A stretch of 64,000 bases of DNA from Sulfolobus acidocaldarius SUSAZ (lineage in GTDB: Archaea > Thermoproteota > Thermoprotei_A > Sulfolobales > Sulfolobaceae), in the NCBI GenBank assembly GCA_000508305.1, contig CP006977.1, positions 590,621 through 654,620 of the forward strand. The letters are read 5' to 3'. Below are positions 6,697-57,933 of the stretch, piece by piece (positions within the stretch are counted from its first letter, which is position 1; each line of letters begins with the position of its first letter). The notes under the pieces were generated by a model. The model was not told where the DNA came from and made no database searches. It worked only from the letters and a program-made list of their open reading frames with translations. Both the position numbers and the translations under genes were made by a program.

Positions 6697-7755
6697 TTAG
6701 CTTAAACTCTTGTAGAGCTCAAGCACCCTTAAAGCTACGTTCCTCCATCTCCATTCCCTAGAAATAGAGATGTTATTCTCCCCTATCTCTTTCCTTATTT
6801 TAGGGTCTCTAAGCTTCTCCACAGCATCCTTCAGGTCCTGGCAACTGGAAATCATGAACCCGTTTACCCCATCCTTCACTATCGTTGATAGAACCTTAGC
6901 TCTATTACCAACTATCACCGGGACTCCCCTGGCCATAGCCTCCTTTATGACGATACCTTCTGCCTCTATATCTGAAGTAAGAATAACAGCCAACGACTTA
7001 TCCATCAGGGAGTACTTTTCCTCCTCACTGGCTACGCCTAAATATTTCACTTTATCTTCAAGACCCAATTCACTGACTCTTGTCATAATCTTCTCTAGAT
7101 AGTCCTTATCCCTAACTTGTCCTATCAGGATAAGCTTCACGTTCAGATTTTTAATACATTCAATCGCAAAGAGCTGGTTTTTCTCGGGACTTATTCTACC
7201 AATGTAAAGTAAATAGTCTTCACGACCTTCAGATTTGGGATAATTAAATGCCATATCATCAACTCCGTTTGGGATTACGACTATCTTAGAGCCGTCATAC
7301 CCAAGGTTTATCATCTCCTCCTTCTCCCATTCACTTACTGCAATTAATTTATCGACTCTCTTTCCTATGTCTCTCTTTAACCAGTTTATGACTCTACCCT
7401 GATCACTTACAAAAATGTGGTGTGGGGTCATTACCAATGGAGCTTCTCCTAACGGTAAAGAGAAAAAGAGAAAAGTGTAAAGGTTCCAGGTACTTAACTT
7501 CCTCCCTAAGTTATGAAAGTGGAGAACTGAAGGAGAATCTCTATAGATCCACGTTCTTTTATGTCTTACTACCTTTATTCCATCTATGATCTCAAATGGA
7601 AGGAGCTTCCCTCTCTCCGTGTAAGTATCTCTCGTTGTATGAACTTCAACGTCGATAGACATTTTAACTAATTCCCTGCTTAAATTGAACACATGAACTT
7701 CTGTACCTCCTCTCACTGGAAGAAAGAGTGGAGTCAACATCCAGACCTTATACAT
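6697..7755 (-). CDS. agl16: GT4-family glycosyltransferase, probably Agl16 (N-glycan assembly)
   Basis: A 352-residue GT-B-fold glycosyltransferase of the GT4 type. The N-terminal donor/acceptor domain begins [21 protein letters not shown]. Then come [16 protein letters not shown], the hinge [13 protein letters not shown], and the C-terminal nucleotide-sugar site [18 protein letters not shown] with the E-x7-E pattern. Length, neighbourhood (next to a phosphohexomutase) and organism match Agl16 of S. acidocaldarius, reported to add the terminal glucose to the S-layer N-glycan; this identity is from memory. GC is higher than in nearby genes: about 47% over 6841-6960 by hand count, against about 34% in two sampled core lines. 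It sits between core genes and an integrase scar, which suggests acquisition by integration. Confidence 0.8.
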
Positions 7756-8042: not shown

Positions 8043-8254
8043 ATGGCGAAAAATAAGACGCGTTGCAAATACGGTGACTATATTATACGCGAGAGGAAAG
8101 GGCGGATTATGTATATAAGATAGAGAATGTGAACTGTGGGACAAGGGAAACTTACGTTGGTTCCTTAATTGACGTAGTTGAGACTTACCTAAAATTGAAA
8201 AATAGCAACGGGGGAGTGGGGGGTGTCCCCCACAGCGCCGGGGGTGGGATTTGA
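8043..8254 (+). pseudogene. Decayed N-terminal fragment of SSV-type integrase, int(N), at tRNA-Ser
   Basis: Reading from ATG 8043 gives MAKNKTRCKYGDYIIRERKG and then a frame break near 8103. One frame over, 8105-8254 gives DYVYKIENVNC...TRETYVGSLIDVVETYLKLKN. Together these match, as I recall it, the SSV1 integrase N-terminus ([21 protein letters not shown]...ERYVGPLADVVESYLKM). The reading frame runs into the antisense of the tRNA-Ser 3' end and stops at TGA 8252. This is the int(N) half left when a fusellovirus-type element integrates into a tRNA gene. The frameshift makes it non-functional. The interval 7756-8042 upstream shows no ORF or RNA. The int(C) half and second att copy are not visible. 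Confidence 0.85.
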
Positions 8255-8319
8255 ACCCACGCAGGGATAACCCTACTGGCTCTCAAGGCCAGCCCCTTGG
8301 ACCGCTCGGGCACCCCGGC
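8236..8319 (-). tRNA. tRNA-Ser (anticodon TGA)
   Basis: A complete class II tRNA of 84 nt without intron or encoded CCA. Acceptor GCCGGGG pairs with CCCCGGC, with discriminator G. The anticodon arm is CTGGC-CTTGAGA-GCCAG, giving anticodon TGA. The long variable arm is TAGGGTTATCCCTGC. The T arm is GTGGG-TTCAAAT-CCCAC. The 3' end lies inside the integrase remnant, so the gene served as an attachment site. The methyltransferase gene ends 27 bases upstream. Confidence 0.96.
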
Positions 8320-8911: not shown

Positions 8912-9938
8912 TCATTTCCAACTTTTTGGGTATATGTCTCTTTCCATAAAAATTCTTTTAGGCCTTATAACTTCGCCTTTTTTACCAGATTCTAATTGCT
9001 TACTTTCTACAATACTCTCTCCTATAGCCACAAGTTCACCTTTAAGAGTTAGAATCGCTACGTCTTGATTTTTACGAAAGTTCTGATAAGCCAGTATACC
9101 AGGTAGGTTTAATTTAGCTCCATACGTTATTGCGTTTACTGCCGTATCGCTCACTATAACTTTTGGAATTCCGCATACCCCGTACTCCATAGGGAGTAGA
9201 ATTCTCCTCAAATCACTCTCATCTTTACAGTTTCTGTATAGGTATAATGATTCTGAAACTTCTTGGAGTGTAACCATATTAGTTTTTTCTGTAAATATAC
9301 CAGACCTAATTCTTCTTAACTCTCTCATATGTGAACCACAGCCTGCTATAACACCTACATCATGACACAATTTTCTCATATAAGTTCCTGCGTCAGACTC
9401 GACTCTTAGTAGTATTAATTTATCCTGAATATCTAAAATATCGATGGCGTAAATTCTCCTTTTTCTTATCCTTCTTTTTACTGAGGATCTTACTGGCGGT
9501 TTCTGATATATTTCGCCTACGAATTGGCTTATTATTTCTTTTAACTCCTTTGGGTCTACATTACAGTGCATTTGTAATAAGCAAATGTATTCCTTTCCAC
9601 TCTTGCTAATGTAATTCATTAATTTTGTTGCATTCTGTAATCCTATCGGTAATACTCCGGTAACCTTGGGATTTCCCCACCCGTTATACGGGTTCTAGGG
9701 TTCCTCCATGTCCTGCCTTGGTAATGTTAAAAAGCTTTTTTACCCAATAAGCTACCTCATGGCTTGTTGGACCAGGTGGTTTATCTAGATTGATTATGGA
9801 GTTTTTTATCAAAGATTCGATTGGTCTCTTATCTGCATAAAAGCCAAATTTCTCCTCAGTGTCTTCTTCTCTCAAGATTTTCCATCTATTTTCATAACTA
9901 CAAAAAGAATCTATCTTGTTTATAAATTCATAAATCAT
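8912..9938 (-). CDS. cbf5: H/ACA RNA-guided pseudouridine synthase Cbf5, interrupted by a 22-nt intron
   Basis: The catalytic subunit of H/ACA RNPs, making pseudouridine in rRNA. Exon 1 (9938-9695) encodes INLDKPPGPTSHEVAYW and ends in GHGGTL. Exon 2 (9672-8912) resumes with PKVTGVLPIGLQNATKL and ends in the PUA domain. The joined coding length is 1005 bases, or 334 residues, normal for the family. Unspliced, the frame stops at TAA shortly after GGTLEPV. Splicing restores GGTLDP, where D is the catalytic aspartate. Cbf5 introns are known in several crenarchaea. The gene begins 1 base after L14e and ends 1 base before the methyltransferase gene. Confidence 0.95.
9673..9694 (-). other. Archaeal mRNA intron in cbf5 with bulge-helix-bulge motif
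   Basis: The transcript around the break reads GGA-A-CCCU-AGA-ACCCG-UAUAA-CGGGU-GGGG-AAA-UCC. The central helix is CCCU/GGGG. The two 3-base bulges are AGA and AAA. The inner hairpin is ACCCG/CGGGU. Cutting after the second base of each bulge removes exactly 22 nt (9694-9673) and joins CTA-G to AT-CCC, giving Leu-Asp-Pro in frame. The RNA structure and the protein alignment independently give the same boundaries. The tRNA-type splicing endonuclease (gene at 46893-47438) is the expected enzyme. Confidence 0.93.
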
Positions 9939-53527: not shown

Positions 53528-53818
53528 TTAATTCATTGGGCTTAATATATCTCGCCGCGGTAGTACAGCCCGGTCAAGCTTAATGCGCCGGTAGTATGCG
53601 GGCCTCTCAAGCCCGTGACCCGGGTTCAAATCCCGGCCGCGGCACTTTATTAAGGGGTTTCCCCCTAATACCCCCATATAAGTTTCTATGATCTTATCTA
53701 AAGCACCAACGTAAGTCTGCCTTTCCTTACCGTCTTGACCCTTCTCTATAACATAGACGTAATACTTCCCCTTAATCTCTTTTACATAGAATTTAGAAGA
53801 GACGTAAAAGTTAGGCAT
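53528..53818 (-). CDS. SSV-type integrase N-terminal fragment, int(N), uninterrupted, at tRNA-Glu
   Basis: From ATG 53818 it reads MPNFYVSSKFYVKEIKGKYYVYVIEK, and then QTYVGALDKIIETYMGVLGG and CRGRDLNPGH. KGKYYVY and YVGALDKIIETY match the fuselloviral integrase N-terminus. The frame runs antisense through the entire tRNA-Glu before stopping at 53528. This is the int(N) half of an integrated element whose catalytic C-terminal half is absent here. An upstream ATG at 53842 is in frame. Unlike the copy at 8043, the frame is intact, suggesting a later event. The fragment lacks the tyrosine recombinase catalytic residues. Confidence 0.85.
   Translation of the reverse strand: MPNFYVSSKFYVKEIKGKYYVYVIEKGQDGKERQTYVGALDKIIETYMGVLGGNPLIKCRGRDLNPGHGLERPAYYRRIKLDRAVLPRRDILSPMN
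53554..53644 (+). tRNA. tRNA-Glu (anticodon CTC) with a D-loop insertion
   Basis: Acceptor GCCGCGG pairs with CCGCGGC, with discriminator A. The anticodon arm is CGGGC-CTCTCAA-GCCCG, so the anticodon is CTC. The T arm CCGGG-TTCAAAT-CCCGG is canonical. The D stem GTAC/GTAT is separated by a 27-base loop, about 18 bases too long, indicating an intron. CCA is not encoded. An oligo-T/A box TTTTTAA about 25 bases upstream is a plausible promoter. It is the attachment site of the int(N) fragment on the opposite strand. Confidence 0.9.
53575..53592 (+). other. Probable ~18-nt intron in the D-loop of tRNA-Glu
   Basis: Removing 18 bases here leaves a normal D-loop AGCCCGGTA. The repeated CCGGT at both edges lets the exact borders shift by up to five bases. 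CCGG at 53570-53573 can pair with CCGG at 53588-53591 as a four-base central helix for a relaxed bulge-helix-bulge. The strict motif is not clear, so the borders are approximate. Confidence 0.6.
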
Positions 53819-53844
53819 TCTATTGCGATATTTCACGCACACTT

Positions 53845-54421
53845 ATATATTCATTCTCTGTTACAAAATATCTCACCAATCAAAAGAAGGGGAAAATCTC
53901 GTCTAGAATACGGGAATTATGGTTTATTATCATTACAATTTTCAGTGATAAACCAGGAGGTTATTATAAAATTATCGATTTAATAGATGCTCAGCAAAAT
54001 ATTTTTGTTAAGTACTTGGAAATTCCCTTCTCAATTAGTCAACTCAATTAGTCAAGGAAGATGAGTTTACAAAACTTGTCCTCAACTTTGAAAGCTTATG
54101 AAATCATATTTAACATGGACGTCTTTATAATATTCTAGTTTATTCTTATTCTGAGCGTCAGTAATGATAAGTAGACTACATTATTGTTTTGTAACACACG
54201 TTGATAAAGTTGCTTTTAAGGATTTTTAGTCACTACAGAATGTAAAAGGGAGGGTTTTTGATACAAGTTAGTCAAAAAGATGATAAAAGTCTAGCCCCTA
54301 TTAATTTGGGCAGAGATATCTTAAGAATCAGTGGAATTTCTCTCACACTTAAAAACTTCTTTGGCTAGAAAAGATCAATTAATCGAGCTAACGTATCCAT
54401 AATTCTTAATCCATTTCATTT
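53845..54421 (+). other. Non-coding remnant DNA beside int(N)
   Basis: No ORF of convincing composition, RNA gene or promoter pair is seen in these ~580 bases. A 13-base tandem repeat (TCAATTAGTCAAC twice, about 54031-54056) is present. The stretch separates the integrase fragment from a broken glycosyltransferase gene. It looks like the decayed body of an integrated element. Confidence 0.5.
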
Positions 54422-55489
54422 TTAGCTAGTCAACTCTTTCTCAATGAACCCCTACATCCTTGACCTGAATTTATCTTCACTGAACTCGATTGCACTCTCG
54501 TGAAGTTCTTTCCTGAATCTCCTATCGACCTCCATTGCTTCCTTGATTAGTTTACTCACCTCCTCCACGTTTTTATACTTAAACTCAGGTGCAACCTCCT
54601 TAGCTCCGCTCTCTTCAGGGACAACAGGCACTAGACCTGCTGACATTGCCTCAACATCTGGGATTCCAAAGTGTTCACCCAGGGTAGGGTGGAAATACAC
54701 AGATGCCCTGCTCATGAGCTTAACCAATTCTTGGGGTGTAAGATCAGTCAAGATGTGAATATCCGCACCTATCCTTCTTGAAAGTTTTAATAACTTGTTA
54801 TAGTACCCTTTTTCTCTGAGAGATCCAACAATTACTCCTTTTACCTTAGATAAAGCGGATACTAATACAGCGTTCTCCAACATCTTACCCCTCTCTATTC
54901 TTCCTACAGTCAAGAAGAACTTTTCCCTTTCTCCCTCATGATATGCACTTGAGAAAGTTTCGACATCCACTGGTGGATATACCACGTCCCTAACCTCTAT
55001 CTGATAGACTTTGGACAAAGCCTGAGCGGAGTACCAGGAGTTAGCCACAAACCTGGCTTTCTTAGCCTCGTCTTTTAACGACGAAAGAATTCCCCTAAAG
55101 GGTAACAGGTAGATCTTCCAGATACCAGAGGAATATTTGCTAGGTAAATCTGAGATTGCGGGAGCTCCTGCATATATTATATGCTTAGTGAAATTAGAAA
55201 GGGGAATATGAACTCCAGACGCGTTAAGAAATGCGTCCAAACTAACCTTGACCCTTATAGCACTGAAATATGTTAACAGCCGTTGATATTTATCAAATCT
55301 GGGGATCGAGAAGGGAACCAAATAAACTGGGTTCCTTACTTGAACTAAGGGCTTCGCAAAACTTACTGAGAAGTAGTCGACCCCTTTCTCCTCCAGCATT
55401 TTGAGAAATGATTTATATACCCTCCCCTCTCTACTATATCACTTACTCATACCAATGCCGTGTGCTATTACTGCAATTTTTAGCCTCAT
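54422..55489 (-). pseudogene. GT4-family glycosyltransferase pseudogene
   Basis: The frame starts at ATG 55489 with MRLKIAVIAHGIGMSK, meets TGA at 55441-55439, and resumes in the same frame with YSREGRVYKSFLKMLEEKG. The GT-B hinge LTVGRIERGKM and donor site GEHFGIPDVEAMSAGLVPVV are intact. A second in-frame stop, TAG at 54454-54452, precedes the expected last residues GFIEKELTS. Two nonsense codons with no frame slip indicate point decay of a recently functional gene. The open piece 55399-54452 lacks the first Rossmann strand. GC over 54601-54720 is about 52% by hand count, higher than core genes. Confidence 0.8.
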
Positions 55490-55507
55490 ATTTACTAAAT
55501 TTAATTT

Positions 55508-56381
55508 ATGGTAGAGATTATAATTCCTGTTGGACCAGGGGACAGGCTAGAGTAGGTGAGAGAAAGTGTAAGTTCAGCCCCTAAGACAGAAGGTGGACAG
55601 GGTAGTGGTATACGATAATAGTGAGAGACCCGAGCTAGGCGATTATCTTAGTTCTCTTGCCGTCGAATACATCAAGGGACCTAGGATGAGAAAAATAAAT
55701 ATGGCTAAATTAAGAAACGTCATGTTATCCTTGTCAAAAGACGACATGATCATCATGTTAGATAGTGACGTTGTTATTCCATACGATTGGAGCCAGAGAC
55801 TAGTAGAGAGAATAAGAAGTGGTGTACACTTTACCTGGATGCATTACGCATATTTGACTAATGACATTATGAAACCGCTCTCTCCAGTTGAGAATAATCC
55901 CAACCTAGGGTGTTCAGCCCTCTCTTCTAAGGTTAAGGATATAGAGTTCGATGAGAGGTACGAGAGGGACGAAGACATATGGCTTTATGCCAAACTTAAA
56001 AAATTAGGTTTTAAGGCCGAGCCAACTGAAGGAAGATGTCTTCATTTGAACTCTACCCACGCTAGACTAGACTTCAGGTCTTCCCTGAAGGAGGCAAAGA
56101 GGAACCTTTGGAGATCCAAGTATGATATGAGACTAATAAGGGATGGGTTAGTTGATTTCACGTTTCTTACAGGTTATTCTTACTATGGGAGCTATTTTAT
56201 AGTGAGAGTTCTAGGAGTAATATACGCTCCACTTTGGCTACTCTACCTTCCAATAATAGCATATGGAATAAAGTATTACGGTGGTGTTAATAGCTTCCTT
56301 CTAAATCTTATCCCTGGACTGGCTCTAGTAACTTCTCTGCCATATGGGCTGGTCAGAGCTCTTAAGGATTGGTATACTTAA
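55508..56381 (+). pseudogene. GT2-family membrane glycosyltransferase pseudogene
   Basis: The start MVEIIIPVGPGDRLE from ATG 55508 is broken by TAG at 55553. It continues VRESVSSAPKT and then needs a frame change near 55590 to enter the long open segment 55593-56381: VDRVVVYDNSERPELG, MIIMLDSDVVIP, NPNLGCSALSSKV and YERDEDIWLYAKL. DSD is the GT2 metal motif, and the C-terminus carries two membrane helices. One nonsense and one frameshift make it a pseudogene, although the 262-codon remainder is long. It is divergent from the GT4 pseudogene. Confidence 0.78.
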
Positions 56382-57015
56382 AAATTAGTCTTTTCGATGT
56401 CGTAGTCACCTTATCCCAACTTGAGTTTAGTTTTAAGTTGAGGTTAACAGGCTAGATGTTTCGCTCGCCCTAGATCTATTTTTCCTGATTTTCCCGAGAA
56501 GTTAAGAGCATTTTCAGTCAGCCGTGTCCTTTCATCAAACTCTCTAACAAATCAAATACAAGGAAGATTATTATATGCACTTTTAACGGTATATATGTTG
56601 TAGTAGACTACAGGCATACCGGTCACTAGGGACTCTAATCAACCAATTAAAAGTTATCATAGTTGGAGTGAGAAATTAATTCTCTAGTCCTAATGACTAC
56701 TTGACTAACTACTCCAGCTAGTTTTTCTCTTTTTAGGAAATTGGACATTCTATGCTGTTTCTTACTTTGAGTTTCACTTATGTCTTTATCCCCTTAGCTT
56801 AAGCTAGATATTGAAGATTGGTGTTTGTTTTCATAGTCTTGAGTGATCTGAAAGCTCCTTCCGCTAAGACGAGTAGATACAAGCAAAGCCACGTCTTATA
56901 CAGTTATTTCTAGTGTTATTTGGTCCCTTGATCTAGTTGATATAATCCATCAGTGTTATTTTAATATTTTAATCCGAACGCATTCTAAAACTACCATAGA
57001 CTGATTTCCTTAAGT
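56382..57015 (+). other. Long non-coding interval
   Basis: About 630 bases with stops in all frames, no tRNA and no clear promoter. It is unusually long for this compact genome and follows the GT2 pseudogene. No copy of the tRNA-Glu 3' end (the expected second att site) is visible. I read it as decayed accessory DNA up to the core gene htpX. Confidence 0.5.
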
Positions 57016-57933
57016 TCACTGTAATATACTGTACAACATTTTTACTCTTTTTGCAGGATGAGGATGTGTCATCAGTATATCTGCGAATGGAGATATATGC
57101 TCGTGCAACCATTTCATAACTAGCTCTTCTGCGTCTCTTTCGTTCTCCTTTAGCTTTATTGGTGGAGCAGTTATTATAATTCCTGTAAACGGATCTGTTC
57201 TAATATTTTGTGCATATATCTGAATTTTAGCTAGAGCAGTAGCTAGATAAGGTGCTTTATCTTTGTAAAGTGTTGCTGAATGAAAATCAGCAAAGGATTC
57301 TCTCAATCTATTGAACCAAAGTACAAATATTTGTAATAAGAAAGTAAGTACGAATAGTACACCTCCTATTGCGAGCATAGCAAGCCCTAAAATTAACTCT
57401 ACTTCATCTCCTGCAAAGAATAATAATGTCCAACCTGTAAATAGTAGAAAGTTACCTACGTATCCTATTATAGTAGGTATGAGACCTAGTGCCATTCCAA
57501 TTTCTACGTCCAAATGCTTTATATGTCCAACTTCATGTGCTAATACAGCCTCAAGTTCATCTTGGTTTAATATATCTAGTAAAGGTTTAGTGACTGCTAC
57601 TCTTTTTCCTGTTATATAATTACCAAATGCAAAGGCATTTGGATACTCCTCATATGATATAAAGACTCTAGGAGTAGGAACTTTTGATTCCATAGCTATT
57701 TTTCTCACAATTTCATATAATGGGTCACCAGGACCTACTTCTTCCGTATTTCTCCCTACTAGATAAGGGGCTATTAGCCATTGTACTAACCATAAGATAA
57801 CTAAAAAAATGGCAGTAAATATTGTAGGGATACCAATAATTAAGACAATGAGATAAGTTATAATTCCCTCAGCTACTATAGTTAATGTTCCTGACAAGAA
57901 CATTAATGTTTTAAGTTTTCTTCCTACGTTCAC
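57016..57933 (-). CDS. htpX: HtpX-type membrane metalloprotease (M48)
   Basis: A zinc protease for membrane-protein quality control. The 305 residues have two N-terminal membrane helices (LKTLMFLSGTLTIVAEGIIT...; PTIFTAIFLVILWLVQWLI), the catalytic HEVGHIKHLD (~residue 135), two more membrane segments and the third ligand region RLRESFADFHSA (~218). The start is a GTG at 57933. It marks the return to core genes after the accessory island. Confidence 0.92.
   Translation of the reverse strand: MNVGRKLKTLMFLSGTLTIVAEGIITYLIVLIIGIPTIFTAIFLVILWLVQWLIAPYLVGRNTEEVGPGDPLYEIVRKIAMESKVPTPRVFISYEEYPNAFAFGNYITGKRVAVTKPLLDILNQDELEAVLAHEVGHIKHLDVEIGMALGLIPTIIGYVGNFLLFTGWTLLFFAGDEVELILGLAMLAIGGVLFVLTFLLQIFVLWFNRLRESFADFHSATLYKDKAPYLATALAKIQIYAQNIRTDPFTGIIITAPPIKLKENERDAEELVMKWLHEHISPFADILMTHPHPAKRVKMLYSILQ

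Follow-up and report, generated by a model that had tools for sequence, protein, structure and literature searches.

The glycosyltransferase (GT) genes on the element side of two SSV-type integration scars in Sulfolobus acidocaldarius SUSAZ were either acquired at or relocated to tRNA integration hotspots of the genus Sulfolobus, and are not ancestral neighbours of the tRNA genes. One of the three is identified by its sequence as the gene for Agl16, and the other two form a divergent GT4/GT2 pair. The explanation that we favour, and consider probable, is gene capture at tRNA integration hotspots with a GT content owing to chance. The window that was analysed is a stretch of 64,000 nucleotides (G000:C1:590621-654620) of the SUSAZ genome (G000; 2,061,920 bp). 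The sole congener searched, G001 (2,225,959 bp), belongs to the same genus, Sulfolobus (g1); where it was examined it is colinear with the window, and there too the int(N) traces and the GTs accompany both tRNA genes. A sequence-only reading of this DNA had noticed GC-rich GTs on the element side of int(N) at both tRNA-Ser and tRNA-Glu, which we confirmed in the window. The features are listed in Table 1.

Table 1. Features at the two integration sites, in window coordinates
Feature	Position	Strand	Evidence
Agl16, GT4 glycosyltransferase, orthologue of saci_0807	6697..7755	-	NCBIfam NF041010 glycosy_Agl16; GT4 1e-28
Decayed int(N) relic running into tRNA-Ser	about 8043..8245	+	PF07935, 54.9 bits at G000:598725-598862
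tRNA-Ser(TGA), second attachment site	8235..8319	-	ARAGORN
tRNA-Glu(CTC) with 18-nt D-loop insert (intron), element attachment site	53554..53645	+	ARAGORN; refolding after insert removal
int(N), N-terminal part of SSV-type integrase, decaying	53594..53842	-	PF07935; SSV4 identity; dN/dS
GT4 glycosyltransferase pseudogene	54452..55489	-	PF00534 8.6e-17 (ORF 54452-55399); frame comparison with G001
GT2 glycosyltransferase pseudogene, divergent from GT4	55508..56381	+	PF00535 3e-6 (ORF 55593-56381)
Candidate int(C) relic	56811..56956	-	SSV4 integrase residues 122-142 and 142-170, across two neighbouring frames
M48 peptidase gene, first intact gene past the remnant	57016..57933	-	PF01435 1.3e-30

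The tRNA at 53554-53645 was called tRNA-Tyr by ARAGORN from the raw sequence, because of an 18-nt insert in the D-loop (TCAAGCTTAATGCGCCGG). With the insert removed it folds cleanly as tRNA-Glu(ctc), and in G009 the corresponding tRNA is called as Glu; the Tyr assignment was rejected on these grounds and the identity given in the sequence-only reading is right. The homologous tRNAs in G004 and G009 contain a similar D-loop insert and are either miscalled or called with an intron. The 3' half of the tRNA-Glu gene is read antisense by int(N), and the end reported by ARAGORN takes in two extra bases. The ORF at 53528-53842 on the minus strand matches PF07935 (SSV1 ORF D-335) with an E value of 3.3e-10 and is 69% identical to residues 1-67 of the SSV4 integrase, which bears out an SSV-type int(N) overlapping this tRNA. 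It is present in G001 too, with a dN/dS of 0.55 between the two genomes. Its matches in phage records (39, all from Sulfolobus viruses) are led by SSV4- and SSV3-like fuselloviruses, and one plasmid, pXZ1, also matches. The integrase N-termini of SSV4, SSV3 and SSV2 (Alphafusellovirus) are among the best matches, at 59-69% identity; these differ from the present remnant in being viruses of about 15 kb, and neither the pair's GT4 nor Agl16 has a recognisable relative in the Sulfolobus virus records.

Between the GT2 and M48 genes lies a candidate int(C) relic (56811-56956), whose orientation is the one to be expected at the distal end of the element. In linked tblastn matches to five integrases, 0-4 of 1500 dinucleotide shuffles scored as well as the candidate, and 5 to 99 of 1500 did so for the orthologous stretch of G001. 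Of the 22 intergenic stretches of the window, the candidate is the best (E = 0.024; next, 0.18). A search with an int(C) C-terminal profile gave 5.4 bits (E = 10), a score at noise level in the window; the assignment therefore rests on the linked matches and the shuffles, and the stretch is best described as a suggestive int(C) remnant that is weak by profile. With such a relic beyond it, the GT pair may lie inside the remains of an element. No second copy of the tRNA-Glu 3' end that could serve as attR occurs in the window within three mismatches, and blastn gave no further copies of the 3' end of either tRNA; what is shown is the trace of an element rather than a complete integrated one. Apart from the GT pair, the ORFs of at least 60 aa from int(N) to the M48 gene are one that runs antisense within GT4 and a short one that covers the scar; none of them is a fusellovirus gene other than the integrase (capsid, DnaA-like or others). 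The arrangement is like SSV-type gene capture at archaeal tRNA genes, credited to She et al. (2001, 2004) in a review (PMC8371274), in its split integrase gene, in the position of int(N) over the tRNA 3' half and in the stranding of element genes in the chromosome. It is unlike it in that only GTs and integrase scraps are left here, with no attR and a rearranged far end.

At the tRNA-Ser site the int(N) frame is decayed, and the PF07935 score in Table 1 bears out the SSV-type int(N) that had been proposed to overlap this tRNA as well; G001 has an open copy at G001:648600-648794. No int(C) was found for the tRNA-Ser element. In most genera examined, tRNA-Ser(TGA) is preceded by a conserved block of genes (methyltransferase, pseudouridine synthase, ribosomal protein and helicase). 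The pseudouridine synthase gene (cbf5-like, window 8912-9938) is split into two frames, as in other genera; cbf5 of Crenarchaeota contains an intron.

The gene at 6697-7755 scores 628 bits against the equivalog model NF041010, for which the cut-off is 575, and adjoins the gene corresponding to saci_0806 (PGM, PMC6335949; archaeal GlmM in NCBIfam naming). By both the equivalog match and this neighbour it is the same gene as saci_0807 of S. acidocaldarius, and the protein shows no difference; what is added to saci_0807 as known is that it borders an SSV-type scar at tRNA-Ser on the element side and that its distribution in the family is patchy. saci_0807/Agl16 has been shown to add the terminal glucose to the S-layer N-glycan, and S-layer N-glycosylation is altered when the gene is deleted (PMC8993221). 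The product of 6697-7755 is predicted from its sequence to be this enzyme, and to this extent the link to S-layer glycans made in the sequence-only reading holds. That reading had also supposed that the glycan serves viruses as a receptor; SlaB-depleted cultures are less susceptible to SSV1 (PMC6805947), and a link of the S-layer glycan to viral receptors is plausible. Agl16 is 95% identical between G000 and G001; its dS between the two (0.27) is about twice the value for the neighbouring genes. Homologues are patchy in the family, with identities of 43-58% in G018, G016, G011, G012, G007 and G008. In the sister genera g4 and g9 the gene is either absent at an E value of 1e-20 or represented by distant matches only.

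The sequence-only reading had described a divergent GT4/GT2 pair at tRNA-Glu; the pair is present, divergent and on the element side, but both frames are broken in the window. GT4 is interrupted by a TGA in codon 17 (55439-55441) and ends early, at a stop close to the C-terminus (54452-54454); GT2 has a TAG in codon 16 (55553-55555) and, near codon 27, a frameshift. The G001 copy of GT4 is intact, and that of GT2 has a stop two codons short of where the window's frame ends but is otherwise open. The dN/dS of GT2 is 0.295, compared with a median of 0.0735 for genes of at least 120 codons. The pair is thus in the course of being lost in G000 and is essentially open in its close relative G001. 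A second GT4 at G000:C1:1515981-1516919 (locus L142), found in G000 only, is 50% identical to the tRNA-Glu GT4 and has the G018 copy as its nearest relative in the gene tree; it may be a replacement for the decaying gene.

All three GTs stand out in composition. Their GC contents (GT4, 42.9%; GT2, 40.7%; Agl16, 40.5%) exceed the mean of 34.9% for 53 genes and place them among the four GC-richest of these genes, and their GC3 z scores (3.3, 2.6 and 3.0, respectively) are the three highest of the 14 genes listed, so that the claim that the GTs are GC-richer than core genes is upheld. The GC of the pair in other genera is much nearer to the local GC. A divergent GT4/GT2 pair occurs in most of the Sulfolobaceae genomes searched and is a family-wide pair rather than one specific to an element. 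Four other genera (g2, g3, g5 and g6) share one conserved block of genes that includes it. The corresponding site is empty in g1, g4 and g9, where F3 and F5 come immediately after F22, or in g1 just F5. These three genera form a clade in the species tree (support 100/100), and the pair lies at a different place in each: at tRNA-Glu in g1, between two tRNA-Lys genes in g4 (G004) and adjoining the 3' end of tRNA-Ile in g9. An AU test rejects a g1+g4+g9 grouping for both GT4 (p = 0.003) and GT2 (p = 0.004); a grouping of g1 with g4 alone passes the test for GT4 (p = 0.185) and is only marginally rejected for GT2 (p = 0.04), and the conflict in these trees may owe much to g9.

These comparisons bear on the possibility that the GTs are old residents of both loci, beside which the scars came later. 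Homologues of the pair are found in nearly every Sulfolobaceae genome searched, as such a reading would have it, but the conserved locus of the pair is elsewhere and stands empty in the window's clade, and the sister genera g4 and g9 have the sparse Agl16 record given above; we regard this reading as highly improbable, and ancestral adjacency of the GTs to tRNA-Ser or tRNA-Glu was rejected by synteny. The empty ancestral site, the tree conflict and the anomalous GC3 support an arrival of the GTs at the tRNA sites, and we infer that they arrived by horizontal transfer.

The sequence-only reading went further and suggested an undescribed class of tRNA-targeting elements that carry surface-glycan GTs and perhaps alter the virus receptor. 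Of ten scars in the window genome, two have a GT no more than 3 kb away on the 3' side of the tRNA, against an expected 0.32 (P = 0.04), and in G001 it is the same two out of 16 (P = 0.10); the expectation was obtained by rotation of the GT positions (3.2% of scars in G000), and both P values are generous because the pattern had been noticed before it was tested. The survey that had been put forward as a check was carried out on int(N) loci from 12 other Sulfolobaceae genomes (79 distinct loci and 16 more, 95 in all; 72 of the first 79 have a tRNA at the integrase 3' end), with GTs called by local GT4 and GT2 profiles that were checked on control loci. GTs were found within 3 kb on the element side at three of the 95 loci (L186, L228 and L227) and on the tRNA side at three of the 95 (L145, L194 and L218), in a sample that is phylogenetically non-independent and made up mostly of the stronger int(N) hits. 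There is thus no enrichment on the element side, and the frequency is near the rotation expectation for G000. The GTs at L228, L145 and L194 belong to one family, which we take to be TreT-like, with 91% identity between L228 and L145; this family accounts for one element-side and two other-side cases. Scars as such are therefore no marker of GT cargo.

No relatives of the pair's GT4 were found among IMG/VR contigs or Sulfolobus virus records, Agl16 gave only distant phage matches and no close viral relative, and a search for GT4 proteins in viral contigs, phage records and plasmids returned no relevant relatives. By local profiles, none of seven viral contigs with a related integrase contains a GT. 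In favour of a GT-carrying class are the two GT-flanked scars of G000, the few element-side GTs elsewhere (L186 and L227), the position of the pair near tRNAs in three sister genera, at a different place in each, and the Agl16 homologue of G018, which is GC-rich (49%, against 35% locally) and is separated by 32 nt from the 3' end of tRNA-Leu. Set against the even split of the survey, closest integrases that are fuselloviral and the lack of close viral GT relatives, they leave the proposed class, taken as elements that carry such genes routinely, without support, and we consider it very unlikely.

A further alternative is coincidence: tRNA genes would be breakpoints of rearrangement in Sulfolobaceae, and host GTs would have moved there independently of the int(N) elements. 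Several observations fit. Gene order on the 3' side of tRNA-Ser varies between genera while the other side is conserved; the M48 gene does not adjoin the tRNA-Glu/TFB block in the other genera checked; the GT frequency at scars elsewhere is at chance level; and the pair of G004 is on the 5' sides of its two tRNA-Lys genes, a side that SSV-type elements do not use for insertion. Rearrangement has affected the chromosome beyond both tRNAs and could by itself have brought in the GTs, and the rearranged far flank also precludes an empty-site comparison at tRNA-Glu. The int(C)-like relic beyond the pair, the GC3 anomaly of all three GTs and the gene-tree conflict of the pair speak against coincidence, to which we assign a lesser, though real, chance.

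Under capture at hotspots, which we prefer, both tRNA genes would be sites at which foreign or relocated DNA was captured on the 3' side in the genus Sulfolobus. An SSV-type (fusellovirus-like) element would have integrated at each, splitting its own integrase gene, and would then have decayed to int(N), probably leaving some int(C) sequence as well at tRNA-Glu. Of what was acquired in these intervals, the GT genes would have lasted longest: Agl16 would be retained at tRNA-Ser because it completes the S-layer N-glycan, and the pair, lost from its ancestral locus in this clade, would have been kept in G001 and would now be decaying in the window genome. Whether the elements themselves brought the GTs is a separate matter. 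At tRNA-Glu the int(C) relic favours cargo, and we hold it possible, tentatively, that the element carried the pair; that Agl16 was carried by the element at tRNA-Ser seems doubtful. Unlikely, too, is the wider scheme in which SSV-type elements would move surface-glycan GTs (the pair and Agl16) from one member of the Sulfolobaceae to another and leave them at tRNA genes, the pair having been lost from its ancestral locus in the g1/g4/g9 clade and regained at three tRNA-proximal sites, and still standing between int(N) and int(C) remains at tRNA-Glu.

Through Agl16, a characterised S-layer glycosylation enzyme is tied to a virus-type integration hotspot, and a conserved GT pair is seen to have left its ancestral locus and to be decaying among close relatives within Sulfolobus. 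If such genes are indeed supplied by virus-like elements, surface glycans, which are possibly relevant to mating and infection, would be partly element-driven. Another element border was observed in G015, where a long int(C) (L077, 13866-14693, plus strand; 411.8 bits) starts at a tRNA-Gly gene about 4.5 kb from the conserved GT pair.
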